A DNA stretch of 64,000 bases from Pseudomonas sp. ADAK18 (GTDB taxonomy: Bacteria > Pseudomonadota > Gammaproteobacteria > Pseudomonadales > Pseudomonadaceae): positions 3,389,001-3,453,000 of the forward strand of contig NZ_CP052859.1 of NCBI RefSeq assembly GCF_012935695.1, read 5' to 3'. Of this stretch, positions 6,871-52,116 are shown in pieces. How positions within the stretch are numbered: the stretch's first letter is position 1; the number at the start of each line of letters is the position of its first letter. The notes beneath the pieces are model-generated. The model ran no database searches, was not told the origin of the DNA, and saw only the letters and a list, made by a program, of their open reading frames with translations. A program made the translations under genes and the position numbers.

Positions 6871-7180
6871 GGATCATCCTCCGGACGGTTATGAGTCCGC
6901 CCTTGTGGTTATGTTTTTAATATTTTCGGGTCTTGCAGAGGCTTTTTTTGGGAGAGGCAAGGAGGCGACAGCCAAAAGCTGACCAAGAGGTTAATTTTAT
7001 AGGTTTCTGTCAGCGTACGAAACCACTTGTTACAAAACCTCCCAGCCACACATAAACCAACGGATACGACCCGACAGCCGCTGATAGACCGCACGTGGAG
7101 AGCCTGATTAGAAATTGAGCGTAGTCGACAGCAGCCAGACAGGCCGCATGGAAAGGAGAGAAACACCAAATCGCAGACAC
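6871..7180. other. Intergenic stretch without a convincing gene
   Basis: About 310 bases between the Mo-hydroxylase start and the tRNA terminator. I see no ORF with a ribosome binding site and family-like composition. It must contain the promoter of the Mo-hydroxylase operon (minus strand) but I cannot pick a convincing -35/-10 pair. Short frames that cross it include bases of the terminator and of the tRNA spacer and look spurious. Confidence 0.5.
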
Positions 7181-7207
7181 AAAAAACCCCGGTCTTTCGA
7201 CCAGGGT
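7181..7207 (-). terminator. Rho-independent terminator of the tRNA-Val/tRNA-Asp transcript
   Basis: Read on the minus strand, ACCCTGGTC and GACCGGGGT form a GC-rich stem around a GAAA loop and are followed by a run of six T. It lies 75 bases downstream of the last tRNA-Asp. Confidence 0.85.
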
Positions 7208-7281
7208 CTTTGCTATCGATCCAATCAAGCCAGTGGCTTTCCTTGGCGTCTCAGGGCCTTCAGTGGACCCTGGAACAGATA

Positions 7282-7358
7282 TGGCGCAGCGGACGGGACT
7301 CGAACCCGCGACCCCCGGCGTGACAGGCCGGTATTCTAACCGACTGAACTACCGCTGC
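7282..7358 (-). tRNA. tRNA-Asp (GTC), copy 2
   Basis: 77 bases with encoded CCA (7282-7284). The acceptor stem GCAGCGG/CCGCTGC pairs perfectly and the anticodon loop CTGTCAC carries GTC. Identical to the copy at 7489-7565, 207 bases upstream in the same transcript. Confidence 0.97.
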
Positions 7359-7488
7359 GTATCGCTCAGACTTGCGTCTGCTTGAACCTTCAGGACTTGC
7401 TGAAGTGTCACCTTCAACCGCCTTCAAACATCTGACTGATCAACCTTGGTTGCTCAATCTCAAATCTGACACATCAGACTTGGAAATA

Positions 7489-7565
7489 TGGCGCAGCGGA
7501 CGGGACTCGAACCCGCGACCCCCGGCGTGACAGGCCGGTATTCTAACCGACTGAACTACCGCTGC
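7489..7565 (-). tRNA. tRNA-Asp (GTC), copy 1
   Basis: Same 77-base sequence as the copy at 7282-7358, including the encoded CCA. Second gene of the Val-Asp-Asp transcript. Confidence 0.97.
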
Positions 7566-7620
7566 GCGTCGGTGCAACCTTTAACGTTGCGTCTTGCCCT
7601 AAGGCAAAACTCTCAAGAAG

Positions 7621-7696
7621 TGGTGGGTGATGACGGGATCGAACCGCCGACCCTCTGCTTGTAAGGCAGATGCTCTCCCAGCTGAGCTAATCACCC
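7621..7696 (-). tRNA. tRNA-Val (TAC)
   Basis: 76 bases with encoded CCA; acceptor stem GGGTGAT/ATCACCC, anticodon loop CTTACAA with anticodon TAC. First gene of the Val-Asp-Asp transcript. Confidence 0.97.
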
Positions 7697-37126: not shown

Positions 37127-37202
37127 TGGCGTCCCCTAGGGGACTCGAACCCCTGTTACCGCCGTGAAAGGGCGGTGTCCTAGGCCACTAGACGAAGGGG
37201 AC
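37127..37202 (-). tRNA. tRNA-Glu (TTC), copy 2
   Basis: 76 bases with encoded CCA, acceptor stem GTCCCCT/AGGGGAC, anticodon loop CTTTCAC with TTC. Identical to copy 1 at 37407-37482. Confidence 0.97.
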
Positions 37203-37280
37203 ACAAACCTTCTGTACAACGTGATCAAACTGAGTCTGATCAGTTCAAGGACGGTGTGGCCAGACCTTGAACGTGTAAAT

Positions 37281-37356
<76 letters not shown>

Positions 37357-37406
37357 GGATTTTTCGCCTCGCGGCGCAGCAGACCTTTCGAGCTGCTTGT
37401 TGAAAC

Positions 37407-37482
37407 TGGCGTCCCCTAGGGGACTCGAACCCCTGTTACCGCCGTGAAAGGGCGGTGTCCTAGGCCACTAGACGAAGGGGAC
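37407..37482 (-). tRNA. tRNA-Glu (TTC), copy 1
   Basis: Same sequence as the copy at 37127-37202. The order on the transcript is Ala-Glu-Ala-Glu. Confidence 0.97.
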
Positions 37483-37561
37483 ACAAACCTTCTATACAAC
37501 ATGATCAGGCTGAGTCTGATCGAATTCAAGGACGGTGTGGCCAGACCTTGAACGTGTAAAT

Positions 37562-37637
<76 letters not shown>

Positions 37638-42360: not shown

Positions 42361-44376
<2,016 letters not shown>

Positions 44377-44720
44377 AACGTACCTCTGAAGTCACCCCAG
44401 GCCAGTAAAAACCGGTGGGGACGAAAAAGACCGCGACCCGCGACTTCTCAGTGCAGGTTGCAGGAAAAAACCATGATAGCTGTAGAAGTGGTGGCGAATG
44501 TGACGGGTTTCAAGGCAAACGTCTTACATGCCATGGGGCATCAATGTTGCAATAAGACTAACGGTCGAGAAATAAACCGAAAAACTTGGCCGAAAAGCCA
44601 TTTCGGCTGTCGCCGCGAGCGGTGATGGCCTCTATACTAGCTCCCCGTTTGTGCATCGCTCTAGTGCATTCGGCTGGAGCGCGACACGTCCCTCCTTTCC
44701 CCACTCAGAGCCGCCGCAAA
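44377..44720. other. Divergent intergenic region uvrB / aminotransferase
   Basis: 344 bases that must contain both promoters. A TATACT at 44633-44638 is a fair -10 for the aminotransferase, but I see no good -35 with it. GCCGAAA, loop AGCCA, TTTCGGC (44589-44607) forms a perfect seven-pair hairpin of unknown role just upstream. No gene seen. Confidence 0.5.
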
Positions 44721-45917
44721 ATGAGCCTGTTCTCCGCTGTCGAAATGGCACCACGCGATCCAATCCTGGGCCTCAACGAAGCATTCAACGCCGATACCCG
44801 GACCACCAAGGTGAACCTTGGCGTGGGCGTTTACTGCAACGAGGAGGGGAAAATTCCACTCTTGCGTGCCGTTGCCGAAGCGGAAGCCATTCGCGTGGCG
44901 CAACACGCCGCCCGTGGCTACTTGCCGATCGACGGTATCGTTGCCTACGACCAGGCTGTGCAAAAGCTGCTGTTTGGCAATGACTCACCGCTGATCAGCT
45001 CCGGCCGTGTCATCACCGCTCAAGCCGTCGGCGGTACCGGCGCACTGAAAATCGGTGCCGACTTCCTCAAGCAACTGCTGCCTGACGCCGTCGTCGCCAT
45101 CAGCGACCCAAGCTGGGAAAACCACCGCGCACTGTTCGAAGCGGCCGGTTTCCCGGTGCAGAACTATCGCTACTACGACGCCGCCACCCACGACGTAAAC
45201 CGTGCCGGCCTGCTGGAAGACCTCAACGCCCTGCCGCCACAGTCCATCGTTGTGCTGCACGCCTGCTGCCACAACCCGACCGGCGTCGACCTGAGCCCGG
45301 CTGACTGGAAACAAGTGCTGGACGTGGTCAAGGCGAAAAACCTCGTGCCGTTCCTCGACATGGCCTACCAGGGCTTTGGCGACGGAATCGACGAAGACGC
45401 CGCTGCGGTGCGCCTGTTCGCCGAATCGGGCCTGACCTTCTTTGTGTCCAGCTCGTTCTCCAAGTCGTTCTCGCTGTACGGCGAGCGCGTCGGCGCACTG
45501 TCCATCGTCACCGACTCCAAAGAAGAAAGCGCGCGCATCCTGTCCCAGGTCAAACGCGTGATCCGCACCAACTACTCCAACCCGCCGACCCACGGCGCGG
45601 CGATTGTGGCTGCGGTATTGAACAACCCTGAGCTGCGCGCCCAGTGGGAAGCCGAACTGGCCGAAATGCGCCTGCGCATTCGCGGCATGCGCGAGCAGAT
45701 GGTGGCCGAACTGGCCAAGGCAGCTCCGGGCCACGACTTCAGCTTCGTCGGCCGCCAGCGTGGGATGTTCTCCTACTCCGGCCTGACCGTTGAACAAGTC
45801 ACCCGCCTGCGCAGCGAGTTTGGCATCTACGCCCTCGACACCGGCCGCATCTGCGTGGCCGCGTTGAACCAGGCGAACATCGGTGCCGTGACCAAGGCTA
45901 TCGTTCAGGTGCTGTAA
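44721..45917 (+). CDS. Aromatic/aspartate amino acid aminotransferase (class I)
   Basis: 398 residues from the ATG at 44721 (MSLFSAVEMAPRDPILGLNEAF), the normal length for AspC/TyrB proteins. PLP lysine in SSSFSKSFSLYGERVGAL; substrate-binding HACCHNPTGVDLS and C-terminal Arg region (DTGRICVAALN) intact. Moves amino groups between glutamate and aromatic amino acids or aspartate. The upstream 45 codons of open frame are not family-like. Same neighbour of uvrB as in other pseudomonads. Confidence 0.93.
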   Translation: MSLFSAVEMAPRDPILGLNEAFNADTRTTKVNLGVGVYCNEEGKIPLLRAVAEAEAIRVAQHAARGYLPIDGIVAYDQAVQKLLFGNDSPLISSGRVITAQAVGGTGALKIGADFLKQLLPDAVVAISDPSWENHRALFEAAGFPVQNYRYYDAATHDVNRAGLLEDLNALPPQSIVVLHACCHNPTGVDLSPADWKQVLDVVKAKNLVPFLDMAYQGFGDGIDEDAAAVRLFAESGLTFFVSSSFSKSFSLYGERVGALSIVTDSKEESARILSQVKRVIRTNYSNPPTHGAAIVAAVLNNPELRAQWEAELAEMRLRIRGMREQMVAELAKAAPGHDFSFVGRQRGMFSYSGLTVEQVTRLRSEFGIYALDTGRICVAALNQANIGAVTKAIVQVL

Positions 45918-45931
45918 GCCTGAGCGTGCAG

Positions 45932-45965
45932 CAAAAAGGGGGAAGCCAGTGGCTTCCCCTTTTCG
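45932..45965 (+). terminator. Rho-independent terminator of the aminotransferase gene
   Basis: AAAAAGGGGGAAGCC, short AGT loop, GGCTTCCCCTTTT: strong stem with flanking A and T runs, 15 bases after the stop. Confidence 0.88.
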
Positions 45966-45996
45966 TTGCGCCAACACTAAGCGTTTGATGAGCTTT

Positions 45997-46130
45997 TGTG
46001 GCGAGGGGGCTTGTCCCCCGTTGGGCTGCGCAGCGGCCCTAAAACCTGCCACCATGAACTTTCTGAATAAACGCGGTGCCTGAATTAGGGCTGCTTCGCA
46101 GCCCAACGGGGGACAAGCCCCCTCGCCACA
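45997..46130. repeat. 134-base inverted repeat element
   Basis: TGTGGCGAGGGGGCTTGTCC at 45997 and its reverse complement ending at 46130; the arms of about 47 bases (through GGGCTGC..GCAGCCC) flank a short unique middle. Looks like a dispersed palindromic repeat, distinct from the REP families elsewhere in the window. Confidence 0.85.
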
Positions 46131-46215
46131 GGTAAGTAAGCACCTGAAAAACTCCCTGCTTTCACGCGCTACCCCTAGACTAGTAGCAAGACTACCCCTT
46201 TGCTGTGAGAACCCC

Positions 46216-46425
46216 ATGAGAAACGACGACCTGGACCTGCGTGCCGACCGCGACGAACTGGACCACTTCACCCCTCGCGCCCCTCAAGCCAAACGCCAGA
46301 AAAGCCTGGTGCTGCAAGTCGCCCTCGGCGTCTTCCTCGGCGGCTTGGCGTTGTGGCTGGTACAACTCGGCGCCGGCGCCCTGATCGCCAAGCTGGCCAT
46401 GGGCACCCTGCAGTTCGGCGGCTGA
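46216..46425 (+). CDS. Small membrane protein, hypothetical
   Basis: 69 residues: a charged N-terminus (MRNDDLDLRADRDELDHF) and one or two hydrophobic stretches at about 31-62 (LVLQVALGVFLGGLALWLVQL...). No family name known to me, but the composition is that of a real small inner-membrane protein, and the start has a GAGAACCCC stretch in front of the ATG. Followed closely by another small gene on the same strand. Confidence 0.65.
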   Translation: MRNDDLDLRADRDELDHFTPRAPQAKRQKSLVLQVALGVFLGGLALWLVQLGAGALIAKLAMGTLQFGG

Positions 46426-46477
46426 CCAATCAATTTAAACTGATACTATTCAAACAGTTACCCGCTGAGCAAACACC

Positions 46478-46639
46478 ATGAACCGCCGTAAAAAAATCAA
46501 GCAGCTCTTAAAGGCCCACGCCAAAAAAGCCAGCGCCAAATTGGCACCCGCCAGCAAAGATAAATACATCAGCAAAGCTGACCGACTGAAGCTGGAAGCT
46601 GAACCCACTCAGGACGAAAGCACTTCCTCCGAGCGCTGA
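46478..46639 (+). CDS. DUF2986 small basic protein
   Basis: 53 residues, MNRRKKIKQLLKAHAKKASA at the start and KYISKADRLK in the middle, the pattern of DUF2986 proteins widespread in gamma-proteobacteria. Very basic N-terminal half, acidic end. Function unknown; nucleic-acid binding would fit the charge. Its last 31 bases overlap the end of the esterase gene on the other strand. It is too short for usual ORF cut-offs. Confidence 0.75.
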   Translation: MNRRKKIKQLLKAHAKKASAKLAPASKDKYISKADRLKLEAEPTQDESTSSER

Positions 46640-47613
46640 CCCACCTTCCGCGCCTCGATACGAGCCGTGATCCACTCACGGCTGTAAGCAAGCACGCTGC
46701 TGGCCATCGCAGTCGGAAAATGAATAAACCCGTGGGCCGCAGACGGCAACAGGAACACCTCAACCGCTGCTGACTTCACCCACCGCTCAGCCAAATCAAG
46801 CGTGTCGTCCCTCAGCGGGTCCAACTCACCGACAAACATCAGCGCAGGCGGTAAACCGGCAAAGTCGCCATACAGCGGTGACAACGGCGGCTGCCGGCGT
46901 TCCTCGTCGCTCAGGCCCGGCGTGAGCAGTCGCAACGCCTCAACTATCCCGGGCCCATCCAACAGCAGCGTTTCAGGGCCCGCCGCGCGCACGCTCGGCG
47001 TACCCGTCAAATCGTAAACGCCGTAATACAACAGCGCCCCGCTCACCCGCTCAAGCAACGCGGGCCATTGCTTCAACGCCAGCAACGTGGCCGCACCAAG
47101 ATGCGCCCCGGCCGATTCACCCACGACAATCACCGGCAAACCGGCAAACTCCTGACAGTCGTCACCCAGCAGCCAGCGGGCGGCCACCAGACAGTCCTCC
47201 ATCAGGCCTTCAACCGGCGTGCTGACCGCAAGCCGATAATCCACCGAGACCACCGCCACGTCGCACGCCTTTACCATGGCCGCGTTAAGGTCGTCATCCA
47301 TCTGCGCATTACCGATCACCCACCCACCGCCGTGGATATCCAACACCACGCCTTTGGCTTTGCCTTTCGGCCGGATGATGCGCACAGGCACAGAAAGGCC
47401 GCCCACACTCACCCACCGGCTTTGCGCCTCTAGCCCGTGCTTGAGCAACTTGCCCGCGCCGGCCATTTGACTGGCGCGCAACAGCGCCTGGATCACACGG
47501 GGCGTGAAGCGATTACGGATTCGAAAGCGCGGCAACCAGGCGAGCTTCTGGTTGAAACGCTGCATTTGCGCCAACTCACGCTCGCTGGCAGGCCAGAGCT
47601 TGTGGGTTCCCAA
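46609..47613 (-). CDS. Alpha/beta hydrolase fold-3 esterase (hormone-sensitive lipase family)
   Basis: HSL-type esterase: oxyanion motif DIHGGGWVIG, nucleophile GESAGAHLG, acid region ELDPLRDD and His in AAHGFIHFP. I place the start at the TTG 47613 (334 residues) because AAGGAG lies seven bases in front of it; an ATG at 47682 would add 23 residues without such a site. No signal peptide. Substrate is probably a short acyl ester. Convergent overlap with the DUF2986 gene. Confidence 0.85.
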   Translation of the reverse strand: MGTHKLWPASERELAQMQRFNQKLAWLPRFRIRNRFTPRVIQALLRASQMAGAGKLLKHGLEAQSRWVSVGGLSVPVRIIRPKGKAKGVVLDIHGGGWVIGNAQMDDDLNAAMVKACDVAVVSVDYRLAVSTPVEGLMEDCLVAARWLLGDDCQEFAGLPVIVVGESAGAHLGAATLLALKQWPALLERVSGALLYYGVYDLTGTPSVRAAGPETLLLDGPGIVEALRLLTPGLSDEERRQPPLSPLYGDFAGLPPALMFVGELDPLRDDTLDLAERWVKSAAVEVFLLPSAAHGFIHFPTAMASSVLAYSREWITARIEARKVGQRSEEVLSS

Positions 47614-47883
47614 TTCGAAACTCCTTCTTGGCGGTGGTTGCGCAGGGTAGATACATTCAACGTGGCCGCAACACTGAGCCATACCGGCTCGCGGAGATCA
47701 ACCCTTCCAGCCTGTCGACGGTCCCTAACTTCGGTGGGTAGTTGCTTCGCCTGGGTAAAAAGTCAGGCGTTTTGAAAGACAGTAGCACCTTGCTCCATTG
47801 CCTACGCTTGCGTCAGAATCCGCCGGCTTGTGCGCTTGGGTAGGGGTCTCTAAGGTTGCTCGGTCGCTGAAAACTCAGTGATC

Positions 47884-48084
47884 GGGTTTAGTAGCCCTGG
47901 CTTGAATACTTAAGTGCATGAACTTCATCTTCCAGACGTCCTGTCTGTGCTTGATGGTGGCTGTGCGTAGGGCGCTTTCGAGCGCGCCGGTTTTAAGTAT
48001 TCACCGGTCTACTAACCTGCGCACAGCTGCCACCCTTTCGTTTAGTAGCGATGAGGTGGTGGCCCGCTCAGGAATACTTATATG
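47884..48084 (+). promoter_or_regulatory. Structured leader with mutually exclusive pairings, upstream of the DUF6124 gene
   Basis: Three blocks interact. The 5' block has TTTAGTAG (47887-47894) and TGAATACTTAA (47903-47913). The middle block has TTAAGTATTCA (47993-48003), CCGG, and CTACTAACC (48009-48017), and is complementary to the 5' block over nearly its whole length. A 3' block repeats TTTAGTAG (48041-48048) and GAATACTTA (48072-48080), the latter covering the ribosome binding site spacer and touching the ATG at 48082. So the middle block can pair with either side. A UUCG hairpin (GCGCT/AGCGC, 47972-47985) sits in the loop. GGTGG+CTGTGCGTAGG (47956-47971) can pair with 48016-48034, giving a pseudoknot. 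Role inferred as a translational switch. Confidence 0.7.
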
Positions 48085-48414
48085 TTCAAAGTCACGCCAA
48101 ACCCTCCAAACACCCCGGATCTGAAACTCCACCAGGCTGCCCAACGCGCCATTAATCACTACCTCAATCCCGGCACTGATGCCGAGACCGCCCCAAAGAC
48201 CGCCGCCCTTTTTAGCGTCGCCGCCGGCGCCAGCAACGAAACCCTGATCGCCAACAGCTACGAAACCACCTCCTCTATCAGCGCCCTGCTGCTCGACCTG
48301 TCCGACGAACTGACCGGCAAAGACCGCGACGTCGCGCTGGCCATTCACCAACTGAGTGAGTTGAGCGTATTGCTGATCGGCAAACTGATGGACCGCGAAA
48401 CACCGTGTAGCTAA
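48082..48414 (+). CDS. DUF6124 (DUF3077-like) family protein
   Basis: 110 residues starting MFKVTPNPPNTPDLKLHQAAQ, the recognisable opening of a protein family very common in Pseudomonas, often in many copies per genome. The N-terminal half carries a conserved AAQRAINHYLNP helix, the C-terminal half predicts a helical bundle (SYETTSSISALLLDLSDEL). No signal peptide, no known function. The ribosome binding site AGGA is 8 bases before the ATG and lies inside the switch-like leader. Pseudomonas-wide occurrence is from memory of the family. Confidence 0.85.
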   Translation: MFKVTPNPPNTPDLKLHQAAQRAINHYLNPGTDAETAPKTAALFSVAAGASNETLIANSYETTSSISALLLDLSDELTGKDRDVALAIHQLSELSVLLIGKLMDRETPCS

Positions 48415-48436
48415 AGCCCAACGCGGTCCTGCGGGA

Positions 48437-48670
48437 CTAGCCCTTCAACTCACCCAACCGATGACTCGCCGCGTCGTCGTAAGCCACATACAACGACTCG
48501 GCGATTTGGCTTTTGATGGCCTTAGCGCTTTCCAGGCCCAACACAAAACCCTCGGCTTTGCCGCCTGCGCGGTTCAGGTCTTCTTTCGTGTCAGCACCGG
48601 TGATGGCGTCGAGGAGCTTGATGGCGTGCGGGCCTACGCCTTTGGGGAGGCTGATTTGGTCGATGCTCAT
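48437..48670 (-). CDS. Small hypothetical protein, conserved in Pseudomonas
   Basis: 77 residues from the ATG at 48670 (MSIDQISLPKGVGPHAIKLLD), with AAGG ten bases upstream. An in-frame ATG 53 codons earlier is rejected because that part has poor composition. Soluble, helical, no known domain. Convergent with the DUF6124 gene, 22 bases apart. Confidence 0.65.
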   Translation of the reverse strand: MSIDQISLPKGVGPHAIKLLDAITGADTKEDLNRAGGKAEGFVLGLESAKAIKSQIAESLYVAYDDAASHRLGELKG

Positions 48671-48835
48671 GTGCGATACCTTGGGGAATTGAAGTCGGTA
48701 GCGCGTGAAACCACTGCCGGGGTGGCATGGTAGACCAGCGTGGGGATTAAAGGGGTGGTTTTGGCCAAAAGCAGTCATTCCGATGCGTCTAAGAACTAGG
48801 GGCGATTCAGTGCCTTTGCAGAGAAGCATCGCTTC

Positions 48836-50134
48836 CTAGCCCAAGTTCAGCCGCTTGCGTGTCTCGTCGCTCATGAAGATATCGTAGATATGGCGATACT
48901 CGCGGGCCTGGGTCTCAATAGCAGTTACCTTGTGATACCGAATTGAGTCGTGCACAACAATTACCTTGGTAGGTGGCTTAAACGGATTGTCCAATTCGAC
49001 CTCGACCACAACGGGAGGCTTTTCGTCGCCAAGTCTTTCAGCATTGGCCTCCGGCGGCGGTACATAGGCAAGGCGGCTTGCCTCGGGGAACAAGACTACG
49101 TTGGTACCCGTCTCGCCCGTCTGCACGGATGGGAAGACCAGACCGTCGACCTGCTTGCCAAAGCGCAGCCGTAAGTACTCGAACACCACCTGGGTCGAAA
49201 GATAGCTCAGCTCATCATTACGAGCCTTTGGCCTGGACATCTTTTTGACAAGTGAGCCCAAGAATACCTTGCGGTGTAGTGCATCACGAAACCCCACGTC
49301 CAGAAGCGACAGATCCGGGGGTTCAACCTGGTCTAGGGCCGTGAGGTCAAGGAGCTTCAGTTCGGCGACTGGAGTCAGCGCTGCGCTCACCACGTGATCC
49401 CCGGTGATGGAGCGGATTTCGCTCAGACAGGTCTCTCGCTCCAGCGCGCAATACAGAGCGGAGATTCCGTTCGGCGTCATCCTTTGACTGCTTGCCATGA
49501 ACCTCGGAGTTGGGCCGAATTGACCAGCGGGATCATTGATTATTTTCTCTGCTTCGCTGAAGCCTTTAGCAAGACGCGCACGGTACATCAAGTCGCCATT
49601 TACTATGGTCCGGATGGCTTCAGGCTTAAGTCCTTCGTCATCGGCGACCAACATAGAGAAAACCGAGTCGAGAAATTTTCCGGCATTCGCGTTGAAGAAA
49701 CGGTGCGTGTACAGCACACCCTCAACGAACTGGTCCCAAAAACCTTCGTAGGAGTTCACCTCCATCGCGTCATCTTCGCCATAAAAGTGCGTAGTGTCGC
49801 CGACATCATCTAGATTGAATTCGGAGGGAACGCCGCTACGCAAATCGTCGAAATATGATTCATTTCCGAGATCCAACCATTCCGAGAGAACAATGTCTAT
49901 TTCTGCAATGGGGAACAGTTCAACCCTGGCCCCATACATCATGCTGAGCTCGTATTCCGAGAGATCCTCCTTACGGGCAATATTCTCGCTAACCCGGGCA
50001 TAGACGTATTCAAATAGAACATGGGCCTCAATAGCCGTCCCACGGCGCTGGCAATATTTGCATTCAGCTTCCTGACTGTGCGCATCGAACAGCTTCTTGA
50101 GAGTTTCCGGAGTGACACATTCAATACAAATCAT
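48836..50134 (-). CDS. RES domain protein with HEPN/RES N-terminal zinc-binding domain
   Basis: 432 residues from the ATG at 50134, which has AGGA/GAAG in front. N-terminal region carries two CXXC pairs (C3, C6, C25, C28), then a helical HEPN/RES-NTD1-like domain (about 35-165). The C-terminal half shows the three residues that name RES domains: Arg in LMYRARL (near 185), Glu in ALYCALERETCLSEIR (near 235), and Ser in SYLSTQVVFEY (near 315). RES toxins of Xre-Res toxin-antitoxin modules degrade NAD+. No Xre antitoxin gene is adjacent, so regulation must differ. Divergent from the HEPN gene at 50292. Confidence 0.8.
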   Translation of the reverse strand: MICIECVTPETLKKLFDAHSQEAECKYCQRRGTAIEAHVLFEYVYARVSENIARKEDLSEYELSMMYGARVELFPIAEIDIVLSEWLDLGNESYFDDLRSGVPSEFNLDDVGDTTHFYGEDDAMEVNSYEGFWDQFVEGVLYTHRFFNANAGKFLDSVFSMLVADDEGLKPEAIRTIVNGDLMYRARLAKGFSEAEKIINDPAGQFGPTPRFMASSQRMTPNGISALYCALERETCLSEIRSITGDHVVSAALTPVAELKLLDLTALDQVEPPDLSLLDVGFRDALHRKVFLGSLVKKMSRPKARNDELSYLSTQVVFEYLRLRFGKQVDGLVFPSVQTGETGTNVVLFPEASRLAYVPPPEANAERLGDEKPPVVVEVELDNPFKPPTKVIVVHDSIRYHKVTAIETQAREYRHIYDIFMSDETRKRLNLG

Positions 50135-50291
50135 CGCTTCTTCCTGAAGGTTCTTTTTCCCATGCATGCCTGGAGACATTTACTTAGCAAAGCTCGCAGC
50201 GCTGGTATAACCGCAAAAGCGGCAGCTGATTGCTAAGGTAACCTCCTTCAGGGATCATTTAAACTGACATGCCAAGGAGGCCGAGCCACTC

Positions 50292-51626
50292 ATGTCCACA
50301 GATAAATCTCTTGTTGCTGCCCTTCAAGCGCTATGGGACATCCCGCCACCCGGCCCACAGAACCTCTGGAGCAGCCGGGAGTTCGTCGCTCTGAAGGAAT
50401 TGCTCACCAAGCGTTACCGCAGCGGAAAATCCACCTTCGGGCTGGAGGCCTCCATCGGCAATGCGCTTAGGTCTCTGGGTCTACCATGCAGCACCCCGCA
50501 TCTGCTCCACCAGCCCAGGCCCGACATGGACAAGGTGGCCGCCGCGTTGGCTCACCAGTTTCAACGGACCACCACTAGGCGGCGATACCTATGCCCGCTT
50601 GATATGGCCGATGAGCTCCCGTCCTTTAAGTTTGGCAATGCCCGGATAGGTCGATTCGCAGCTGCCGAACTTGAGATTTTGTTCAATGCGCCCCGCTTAG
50701 AGCGCTGTTATCCCGGTATACGGCTGGATACTCAGCGCCTGTCCCAGTTTCATTGGATGGTCGTAGAGGAAGACATCTCGGTTCAAGGCGAATCGGGCAA
50801 TCGCCAGTTCTCCTGGCTGGACGTCCCCTTCGGAAAGGATCTGGGCGAGATTGTTCCCCACAGTGGGCGCTTCCCCGCGGCGGTAGAGCGCGCGCTGTTC
50901 TTCTTGCTGCTGGCGCCATGGGAAGGCTGGGCCGAGATGACCGAGGTGGACTGGCGGGGTTTCCGGCTGCCTTGGGTATACACCCTCGACAATGACCTGT
51001 GTGCGTTCCCACCTCCGCCGCCGCTCCCAGAGCAGCTGTCGTGGGAGCCATACGCTCATCAAGTGGACCACGACGAGTGGGAAGAATCCGAACGCCCGCT
51101 GTGGCTGCGAACCTGGGCAACCGCCGAGGATGTGCGGCAGGCGCTGGAAGCTAGGTGGGCGCTGCTGCAAGCAGCGCGTACCCAGGCGTCGGAACTGTTC
51201 TCAACTCCGGTGGAGCACTTCCTGGTCCGTGCATTCCTTTCCTATGGCATCGATGAAGTGATGGCTCACCTCATCATGATTGAGGCCGCGTTTGGAGCTG
51301 AGGCAGACCACAGGCGCAAGCTACGACTGGCAGGCGATAATCACGACGAATCGGCGACACGCAGGGTTGCGGCAAGACTGAGCGCCGCCATAGTCGAGCC
51401 GGGCGCAGCGAAGGAGTATCTGGACCTTTACGACATGCGATGCACCTACGTTCACGGGCGCCCTGAAGGTCGTGTCATCTCCAGCCAACAGCGGGTCTTG
51501 GCACGTCGCCTTGCACGCGAAGCGGCAAACTCCTTGGTTGGCCTAGCGCAAGCACAACAGTCCCGCGAAATCGTCCTGCTCGACTTGCTCAATCGCGGCG
51601 TGGCGAACCTCCCTCCCAAGCCGTGA
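50292..51626 (+). CDS. Apea-like HEPN domain protein
   Basis: 444 residues. The C-terminal part matches the Apea-like HEPN pattern: an amphipathic helix pair ending in YDMRCTYVHGRP with R383-x4-H388, the RNase-type RX4-6H motif. The N-terminal 280 residues have no domain I can name; they contain a Trp-rich middle (LLLAPWEGWAEMTEVDWRGF). ApeA-type HEPN proteins act as abortive phage defence nucleases in other bacteria, so a defence role is possible but not shown. AAGGAGG lies 11 bases before the ATG. Head-to-head with the RES gene, 157 bases between. Confidence 0.75.
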   Translation: MSTDKSLVAALQALWDIPPPGPQNLWSSREFVALKELLTKRYRSGKSTFGLEASIGNALRSLGLPCSTPHLLHQPRPDMDKVAAALAHQFQRTTTRRRYLCPLDMADELPSFKFGNARIGRFAAAELEILFNAPRLERCYPGIRLDTQRLSQFHWMVVEEDISVQGESGNRQFSWLDVPFGKDLGEIVPHSGRFPAAVERALFFLLLAPWEGWAEMTEVDWRGFRLPWVYTLDNDLCAFPPPPPLPEQLSWEPYAHQVDHDEWEESERPLWLRTWATAEDVRQALEARWALLQAARTQASELFSTPVEHFLVRAFLSYGIDEVMAHLIMIEAAFGAEADHRRKLRLAGDNHDESATRRVAARLSAAIVEPGAAKEYLDLYDMRCTYVHGRPEGRVISSQQRVLARRLAREAANSLVGLAQAQQSREIVLLDLLNRGVANLPPKP

Positions 51627-52116
51627 CCATGCGGCTATGTCACAGGACTGCTATGCACATGGCGGCATGGGGAAAAGAGCTTGGGGGAGAAAGGGTCAAG
51701 GGAAGGCGTTTAAGGGGAACAGGCCTTGCCCTACCCGAAAAAGCTACTGGCTCACCTTCAGGTCCTAACACCGGCCTCCAGATACGGGAAAAGGGTGAAA
51801 AAGCCAGCCTTCTCCTCGCCGTCATCCAGCTCGGCGTCAGCTGTAGTGCTCAAAAACAACCCCAGTAGTTATCCAAGGGAGCTCCGGCCTAAATCCAAGA
51901 GCAGTGTGATGCCGGGCACTTCAAGGGCAGCGACCGAGCACACTGCAATGATCACCACGGATGGACGCAAAGCTGACAGATCGGTATTGATCTCTCTGTC
52001 ATTGTTTCGCGTGGTCCGCCGCTAACTCAGTCGCAGCCTCATGAAGGTAGGGGGTGTGTTGCGAATGTCCGCGTTGGGTCGATTGCTGTCTGTGGCGAAG
52101 GGCTGCAATCGACCCA
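51627..52116. other. Non-coding stretch with a palindromic repeat arm
   Basis: About 490 bases. Frames inside it (such as 51623-51868) lack start signals and family resemblance. Near 52062-52116 lies one arm of a palindrome (GAATGTCCGC, then GGGTCGATTGC ... GCAATCGACCC) whose other arm is displaced by the insertion at 52117-52271. Confidence 0.5.

Follow-up and report, generated by a model that had tools for sequence, protein, structure and literature searches.

The leader of a small DUF6124 gene of Pseudomonas sp. ADAK18 contains a C4 antisense RNA (Rfam family RF01695) between two sets of complementary target blocks, and we hold it very probable that the whole is an antisense-RNA cassette, in which C4 would be cut from the leader, pair with the downstream targets a2 and b2 and block translation of DUF6124. 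C4, the RNA controlling the immunity operon of phages P1 and P7, has so far been seen as a phage lysis-lysogeny regulator and, in Acinetobacter, as a set of sRNAs lacking known targets; in Pseudomonas it constitutes a family of chromosomal antisense-RNA genes that reaches 47 copies in a single genome. Every one of the copies studied precedes its own candidate target gene, most often a member of the uncharacterised DUF6124 family, which in this way gains a testable regulatory logic, and the tens of natural RNA-target pairs per genome offer material for studying how antisense specificity evolves and how it is kept distinct once genes have been duplicated. The leader found in the window (the whole stretch of 64,000 nucleotides analysed here) seems to be new in scale and target rather than in kind. 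C4 was listed for Proteobacteria and phages by Weinberg et al. 2010 (PMC2864571, in the text available), and because PMC5320573 reports, in its accessible part, that the same study predicted C4 in Pseudomonadales, no novelty is claimed for C4 in Pseudomonas as such. A link to DUF6124, the copy numbers and the copy-specific codes were not found described in the accessible portions of the C4 literature, including PMC2864571, PMC8198154, PMC5320573, PMC12197685 and PMC8546580. In the literature searched, DUF6124 was not found mentioned and DUF3077 was mentioned in one paper.

A C4 leader and its target blocks

All parts of the cassette lie on the forward strand, and its approximate extent (47784..48400) is given by the part that can still be aligned in loci of other species with unmatched flanks: in a blastn comparison of window 44000-52000 with 21 loci from named genomes, the match was confined to about 47784-48400 in L222, L224-L226 and L228-L235. 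A predicted sigma-70-type promoter (TTGTGC - 17 nt - TAAGGT, 47828..47856) would start transcription at about 47862, i.e., ahead of the first block, where the sequence-only reading had needed it to be. A first leader hairpin (47862..47883, stem 47862-47869/47876-47883, as read from the letters) is followed by the a1 target (TTTAGTAG, 47887..47894) in the loop of a second small hairpin (47884-47897), and by the b1 target (47903..47914), which includes TGAATACTTAA at 47903-47913. The C4 RNA itself (47950..48037) is made up of the stems P1 (47955-47971/48016-48032), P2 (47972-47985, with a TTCG loop at 47977-47980) and P3 (47986-47990/48004-48008); RNA pairing and the Rfam fold place one antisense segment, b', in the P3 loop (47991..48003) and the other, a', in the linker from P3 to P1 (48009..48015), so that the complementary middle block lies within 47991-48016. 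Downstream, TTTAGTAG recurs as the a2 target (48041..48048), flanked by UCG (48038-48040) and CGA (48049-48051), and GAATACTTA forms the b2 target (48072..48080), which overlaps the Shine-Dalgarno AGGA (48070-48073) and ends one base before the ATG (48082) of the presumed regulated gene, DUF6124 (48082..48414, 110 amino acids; PF19619, 79.3 bits, cut-off 27).

RNAduplex pairs 47992-48003 with 47903-47914 (12 bp, -11.5 kcal/mol), 47994-48002 with 48072-48080 (9 bp, -9.8 kcal/mol) and 48009-48015 with seven bases in a1 and in a2 (-6.5 kcal/mol each). The summed pairing energies of -18.0 upstream and -16.3 downstream, against dinucleotide-shuffle means of -8.5 and -8.5, were matched by 0, 2 and 0 of 2000 shuffles (upstream, downstream and both), the fold energy of the leader lies 4.7 sd below that of its own shuffles, and C4 alone adopts the three-stem fold of the family (-45.6 kcal/mol), with a' unpaired and b' unpaired except for the closing pair. 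The sequence-only reading had described three matching blocks beyond chance, a middle block complementary to two target copies, one of them at the ribosome binding site, and a UUCG tetraloop hairpin, and all of these were recovered. Its pseudoknot between 47956-47971 and 48016-48034, with a 3-base bulge, was rejected: the pairing is C4's own nested P1 stem, a bulge-free 17-bp helix (47955-47971/48016-48032) that encloses the TTCG hairpin and the block-bearing hairpin.

The window C4 aligns over its full length to RF01695 (79.1 bits against a gathering score of 45, positions 1-87 of 87), and the features of the family are found together, i.e., covariance score, P1/P2/P3 fold, complementarity of a'/b' to a2/b2 and b2 at the ribosome binding site. 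Conversely, a covariance model built from the 19 copies of the window's genome detects the P1 C4 (53.0 bits, E 1.2e-10). The 5' element (47850-47903), which includes the first hairpin, aligns end to end with c4-a1b1 (RF03163, positions 1-53 of 53, E 6.2e-10) at 44.6 bits, just under the gathering score of 46.7, and the a1/b1 complementarity is nonetheless present. The leader is also not a member of isrK (RF01394), given a weak match of 22.4 bits and a gathering score of 50 far above it. The proposed structured regulatory leader is widespread, C4 occurring in 138 of 149 sampled Pseudomonas genomes, and, being RF01695, it is not an undescribed class. The covariation that had been suggested as a check upstream of homologous DUF6124 genes was likewise found, pairing being kept by covariation: the 27 pairs of the C4 fold covary over the 19 copies of the genome (0/500 shuffles on all five measures), with 98.0% of alignment cells paired and 10 pairs with double-sided change.

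The cassette shares with the c4-icd-ant module of P1 and P7 (immI operon) the three-stem fold, the a'/b' segments, the order a1-b1-C4-a2-b2-gene, a b2 adjoining the gene start and a sigma-70-type promoter just upstream; the annotated P1 record has a1 at 48255-48261, b1 at 48269-48276, c4 at 48343-48419, a2 at 48423-48429 and b2 at 48452-48459, the latter ending 10 nt ahead of icd (from 48470). Unlike the phage system, it is chromosomal, present in many copies per genome and known here from sequence, and behind its C4 stands a single small DUF6124 gene in place of icd-ant; among the seven neighbouring frames scanned at the window locus, no antirepressor gene of the immI type was found. Related, too, are the Group 1 C4-like sRNAs of Acinetobacter baumannii, also multi-copy in one genome, with a variable a' region and reported, in the part of PMC5320573 available, to be expressed and apparently processed. 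Their bacterial targets are conjectural there, whereas here a gene with matching a2/b2 lies directly downstream of each copy studied.

The same layout recurs in other loci. Of the 80 named loci (the best 80 of at least 463 relatives), 78 have a full C4 ahead of DUF6124, and the strict promoter keeps its position with respect to the first hairpin in 169/206 distinct loci, against 0.24 expected from shuffles (the loose form in 201/211 loci). With the start codon called in 206/212 loci, the 3' end of b2 falls between 3 nt inside and 20 nt before the ATG in 197/206. An automatic search placed a1 ahead of b1 in 174/206 loci, and the mean b1 run is 7.9, against 6.7 with a random other copy; the a1/b1 side is less well defined, and upstream pairing is weaker evidence than downstream pairing.

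Copies and their pairing codes

In the window's genome 19 C4 matches were counted, every one above threshold, along with 14 DUF6124 genes. By position, 13 of the 19 C4s precede a DUF6124 gene, and for the remaining gene (L028) the stretch that was fetched contains no C4. Of the other six C4s, one is followed by a short frame and then a DUF3077 gene (L003), three by small frames that reach the cut-off of no Pfam family (L002, L004, L011), one by a 25-aa frame starting like DUF6124 (L005) and one by a gene over the NnrU cut-off (L015). DUF3077 and DUF6124 are related, the L001 protein passing both Pfam cut-offs. In L015 (C4 at C1:2084855-2084941) target blocks are present on both sides of C4 and an NnrU-like membrane protein gene takes the place of the DUF gene, as though the old leader had acquired a gene unrelated to it. 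In L003 and L004 the stop of the short frame behind C4 and the start of a second gene (in L003, DUF3077) overlap, an arrangement that recalls P1 icd-ant and makes translational coupling possible; two loci of another genome (L182, L183 of G062) also start with short frames.

The letters of the P3 loop and the linker vary between copies, yet remain complementary to the targets within each copy. Cognate pairing was compared with non-cognate pairing in four sets: the 19 own copies, 37 of the 47 C4 matches of genome G062, the named loci (52 distinct of 78) and viral loci (43 distinct of 78, from the best 80 of 109), copies with identical a and b being collapsed. Two named loci were dropped (L266, with its C4 cut by the contig end at 27 bits, and L278, with an interrupted leader and its sole C4 match about 1.4 kb upstream), as were two viral ones (L113, where the contig begins at the gene, and L158, where C4 directly precedes another frame of the family), while L290 and L258, whose P3 stem is not cleanly delimited, were used as they are. 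Cognate pairing was stronger for a, b and a+b, upstream and downstream, in all four sets (24 tests, each 0/5000 permutations), with downstream a+b energies of -21.2 vs -13.4 (own), -21.7 vs -13.3 (G062), -21.1 vs -13.7 (named) and -22.1 vs -13.6 (viral). The cognate downstream target ranks first for 16/19 own, 32/37 G062, 29/52 named and 32/43 viral C4s; upstream, for only 14/19, 13/37, 18/52 and 14/43, respectively. In 23 of 342 non-cognate pairs of the own set and 66 of 1332 of G062 the energy comes within 1 kcal/mol of the target's cognate pairing, or exceeds it, and some copies pair weakly with their own targets, most of all L014 (b runs of 6 and 5; downstream loop rank 15 of 19). The codes are mostly copy-specific, not fully private by energy.

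Codes also differ between close relatives. Among related loci, one b code is shared by the window, L218, L220 and L221, and L216, L217 and L219 have others; in these three, b1, b' and b2 have changed together relative to the window and a is unchanged. L216, from P. spelaei, has a different b code at 97% protein identity to the window protein and a dS of 0.16. Where two G062 proteins are at least 70% identical (40 pairs), average identity is 56% in the b loops and 80% in the remaining C4, and the mean cross energy of these pairs (-13.2, against a mean cognate energy of -20.7) equals nearly that of all non-cognate G062 pairs (-13.3). Three loci of one genome (L180, L189, L215) even encode identical proteins behind three different RNA codes, although the L180 C4 could still reach the L215 target by energy (-20.0 vs -20.5 for the cognate). 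Recombination between leader and coding sequence could be a source of such pairs with the same protein and different codes. We tentatively put forward, as a possibility short of an even chance, that the cassettes make up, on the chromosome, a set of antisense 'heteroimmunity groups', whose copies multiply within and between Pseudomonas genomes while selection drives new codes that residents do not silence, so that the RNA lock would diversify faster than the protein it guards; an incoming cassette would then be expressed only in cells without its code, as in P1/P7 immunity.

How the cassette may work

In the mechanism that we favour, a single transcript from near 47862 would carry a1/b1, C4, a2/b2 and the DUF6124 coding sequence, and the three-stem fold of C4 would expose the P3 loop (b') and the linker (a'). 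C4 would be excised from the transcript by analogy with P1, where RNase P makes the cut: in P1/P7 the product is a free RNA of about 77 nt that acts in trans (PMC5320573 and PMC8546580, in the parts available). Free C4 would then pair with a2/b2 on further transcripts of the same cassette and cover the Shine-Dalgarno, keeping translation repressed by default, and DUF6124 would be made only when C4 runs short. Of the functions that the sequence-only reading had offered, that of an sRNA target comes nearest to the P1 precedent of a processed, trans-acting antisense RNA, and riboswitch and thermosensor found no support, no such family being among the 8 Rfam matches in the window.

It counts against the antisense reading that pairing in cis would leave an identical signature in the sequence. 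One predicted transcript carries both target pairs, whose strengths in the window copy are alike (-18.0 and -16.3), and a switch can be imagined in which the C4 loop pairs within that transcript with either a1/b1 (gene on) or a2/b2 (gene off), perhaps sensing a ligand, temperature or translation and without any free antisense RNA. Such a switch is improbable in our judgement: the studied members of the family are described as processed (PMC5320573, available part) and trans-acting (PMC8546580, likewise), and the variable stretches of the 19-copy alignment are the loop, the linker and P2, with no other conserved core resembling a ligand pocket noticed. Pairing of C4 with a1/b1 might also decide on early termination between b1 and C4, by which C4 would control its own supply. 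A terminator-like hairpin was found there in 9/19 own copies and in 24 of 206 loci (205 of Pseudomonas type and P1), where base shuffling gives 5.25 (sd 2.1); by the rule used it is absent from the window copy and from 182/206 loci, P1 included, which makes such attenuation unlikely here. As a general device between b1 and C4, an attenuator was rejected on the same count of 24/206.

Two further readings were considered. DUF6124 might harm growth, with C4 as the antitoxin RNA of a module like type I toxin-antitoxin systems, and the cassette likely does have the antisense half of that definition; the large number of copies in a genome and their mostly private antisense codes fit this, as does icd, the first C4-controlled gene in P1, which inhibits cell division (PMC8198154, part available). 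The window protein, however, has no match in NCBIfam, PHROGs or PADLOC, and we regard a toxin as conceivable and rather doubtful; its one match among solved structures has an E of 0.77. That the locus is a decayed remnant of prophage immunity without present function is very improbable, even though C4 is phage-associated and precedes Bro-N antirepressor-type genes in some loci of other genera, and 109 DUF6124 relatives lie on IMG/VR contigs. Against decay stand a dN/dS of 0.10-0.23 (window versus 11 related copies), by which the coding sequence is under purifying selection, the kept promoter, the kept pairing, the joint code changes and the tens of copies in some genomes.

Spread, origin and genomic setting

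The 138 C4-positive genomes of the 149 sampled in Pseudomonas (137 over cut-off) include all 118 with DUF6124 (117 over cut-off), none of which is among the 11 C4-negative ones (Fisher p 6e-9); this survey scored up to 27 C4 and 38 DUF6124 candidates per genome, with stricter filters in the C4 search. Where more candidates were scored, in five other Pseudomonas genomes, 35, 36, 42, 43 and 47 C4 matches were counted. On many chromosomes of the genus the number of such cassettes thus lies between a handful and several dozen, most having a pairing code of their own. At the level of the order, C4 was found in 29/194 genomes; of these, 26 lie outside the genus and have 1-6 matches each, except one with 14. 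DUF6124 was found in 2/194, both Pseudomonas; among the genomes searched, DUF6124 was found only in this genus. Of the relatives in genome contigs, at least 463 in number, the best 80 are all from Pseudomonas records, and the closest among the matches listed, from P. spelaei, is 98% identical over the matched protein. In one named locus (L278, P. mediterranea) the DUF6124 copy keeps a2 and b2 and is separated by unrelated-looking sequence from the C4 about 1.4 kb upstream, probably a natural disruption of the leader.

A tblastn search with the window DUF6124 (E 0.01) gave no match among 50,697 records of phages and 72,556 of plasmids, and the gene was rejected as a phage gene for want of a match in the phage records searched. 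A single phage record (EU982300) is matched, at its edge, by two relatives that come from viral contigs and have no PHROGs match; the L003 DUF3077 protein matches phrog_36471, of unknown function. Among the few contigs looked at, L110 carries the cassette amid frames matching tail and tape-measure PHROGs, where it can look like cargo. In nine viral contigs (L112, L115, L130, L131, L133, L135, L136, L137, L138) the C4 of the cassette is preceded, usually at a distance of about 0.5 kb, by another C4 match of greater divergence (46-58 bits).

Of ten C4 loci taken from other genera, all but L312, L314, L315 and L317 were scanned for the protein behind C4. In L308, L310 and L313 this protein exceeds the Pfam cut-off of Bro-N, an antirepressor-type domain, and in L309 it lies just under it; no match was obtained for the frames tried in L311 and L316. 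In G062, 28/37 C4s precede frames beginning like DUF6124 (by our own reading) and one (L179) a Bro-N gene. Since Bro-N genes stand behind C4 both in other genera and in L179, the DUF6124 cassettes likely derive from phage-type immunity modules. As to the locus itself, the hydrolase gene neighbouring the window cassette has a match (68-79% identical) in 12 other genomes among the 57 searched, own included, and C4 was absent from the fetched flanks, up to 1.5 kb, in 12/12. This comparison of putative orthologues suggests that the position of the window cassette is not ancestral; mobility is not proven thereby.

Close to the cassette, on the reverse strand, a 90-aa neighbour without Pfam family (48437-48709) resembles a frame at 7103-7360 of viral contig L170, and the RES-domain protein encoded at 48836-50179, with a HEPN/RES N-terminal domain just under its Pfam cut-off, is possibly of toxin type. 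Farther away, also on the reverse strand, clusters of four and three tRNA genes lie at 37130-37637 and 7285-7696, and among the four, two equal pairs of scores alternate, as would be expected had one pair been duplicated.
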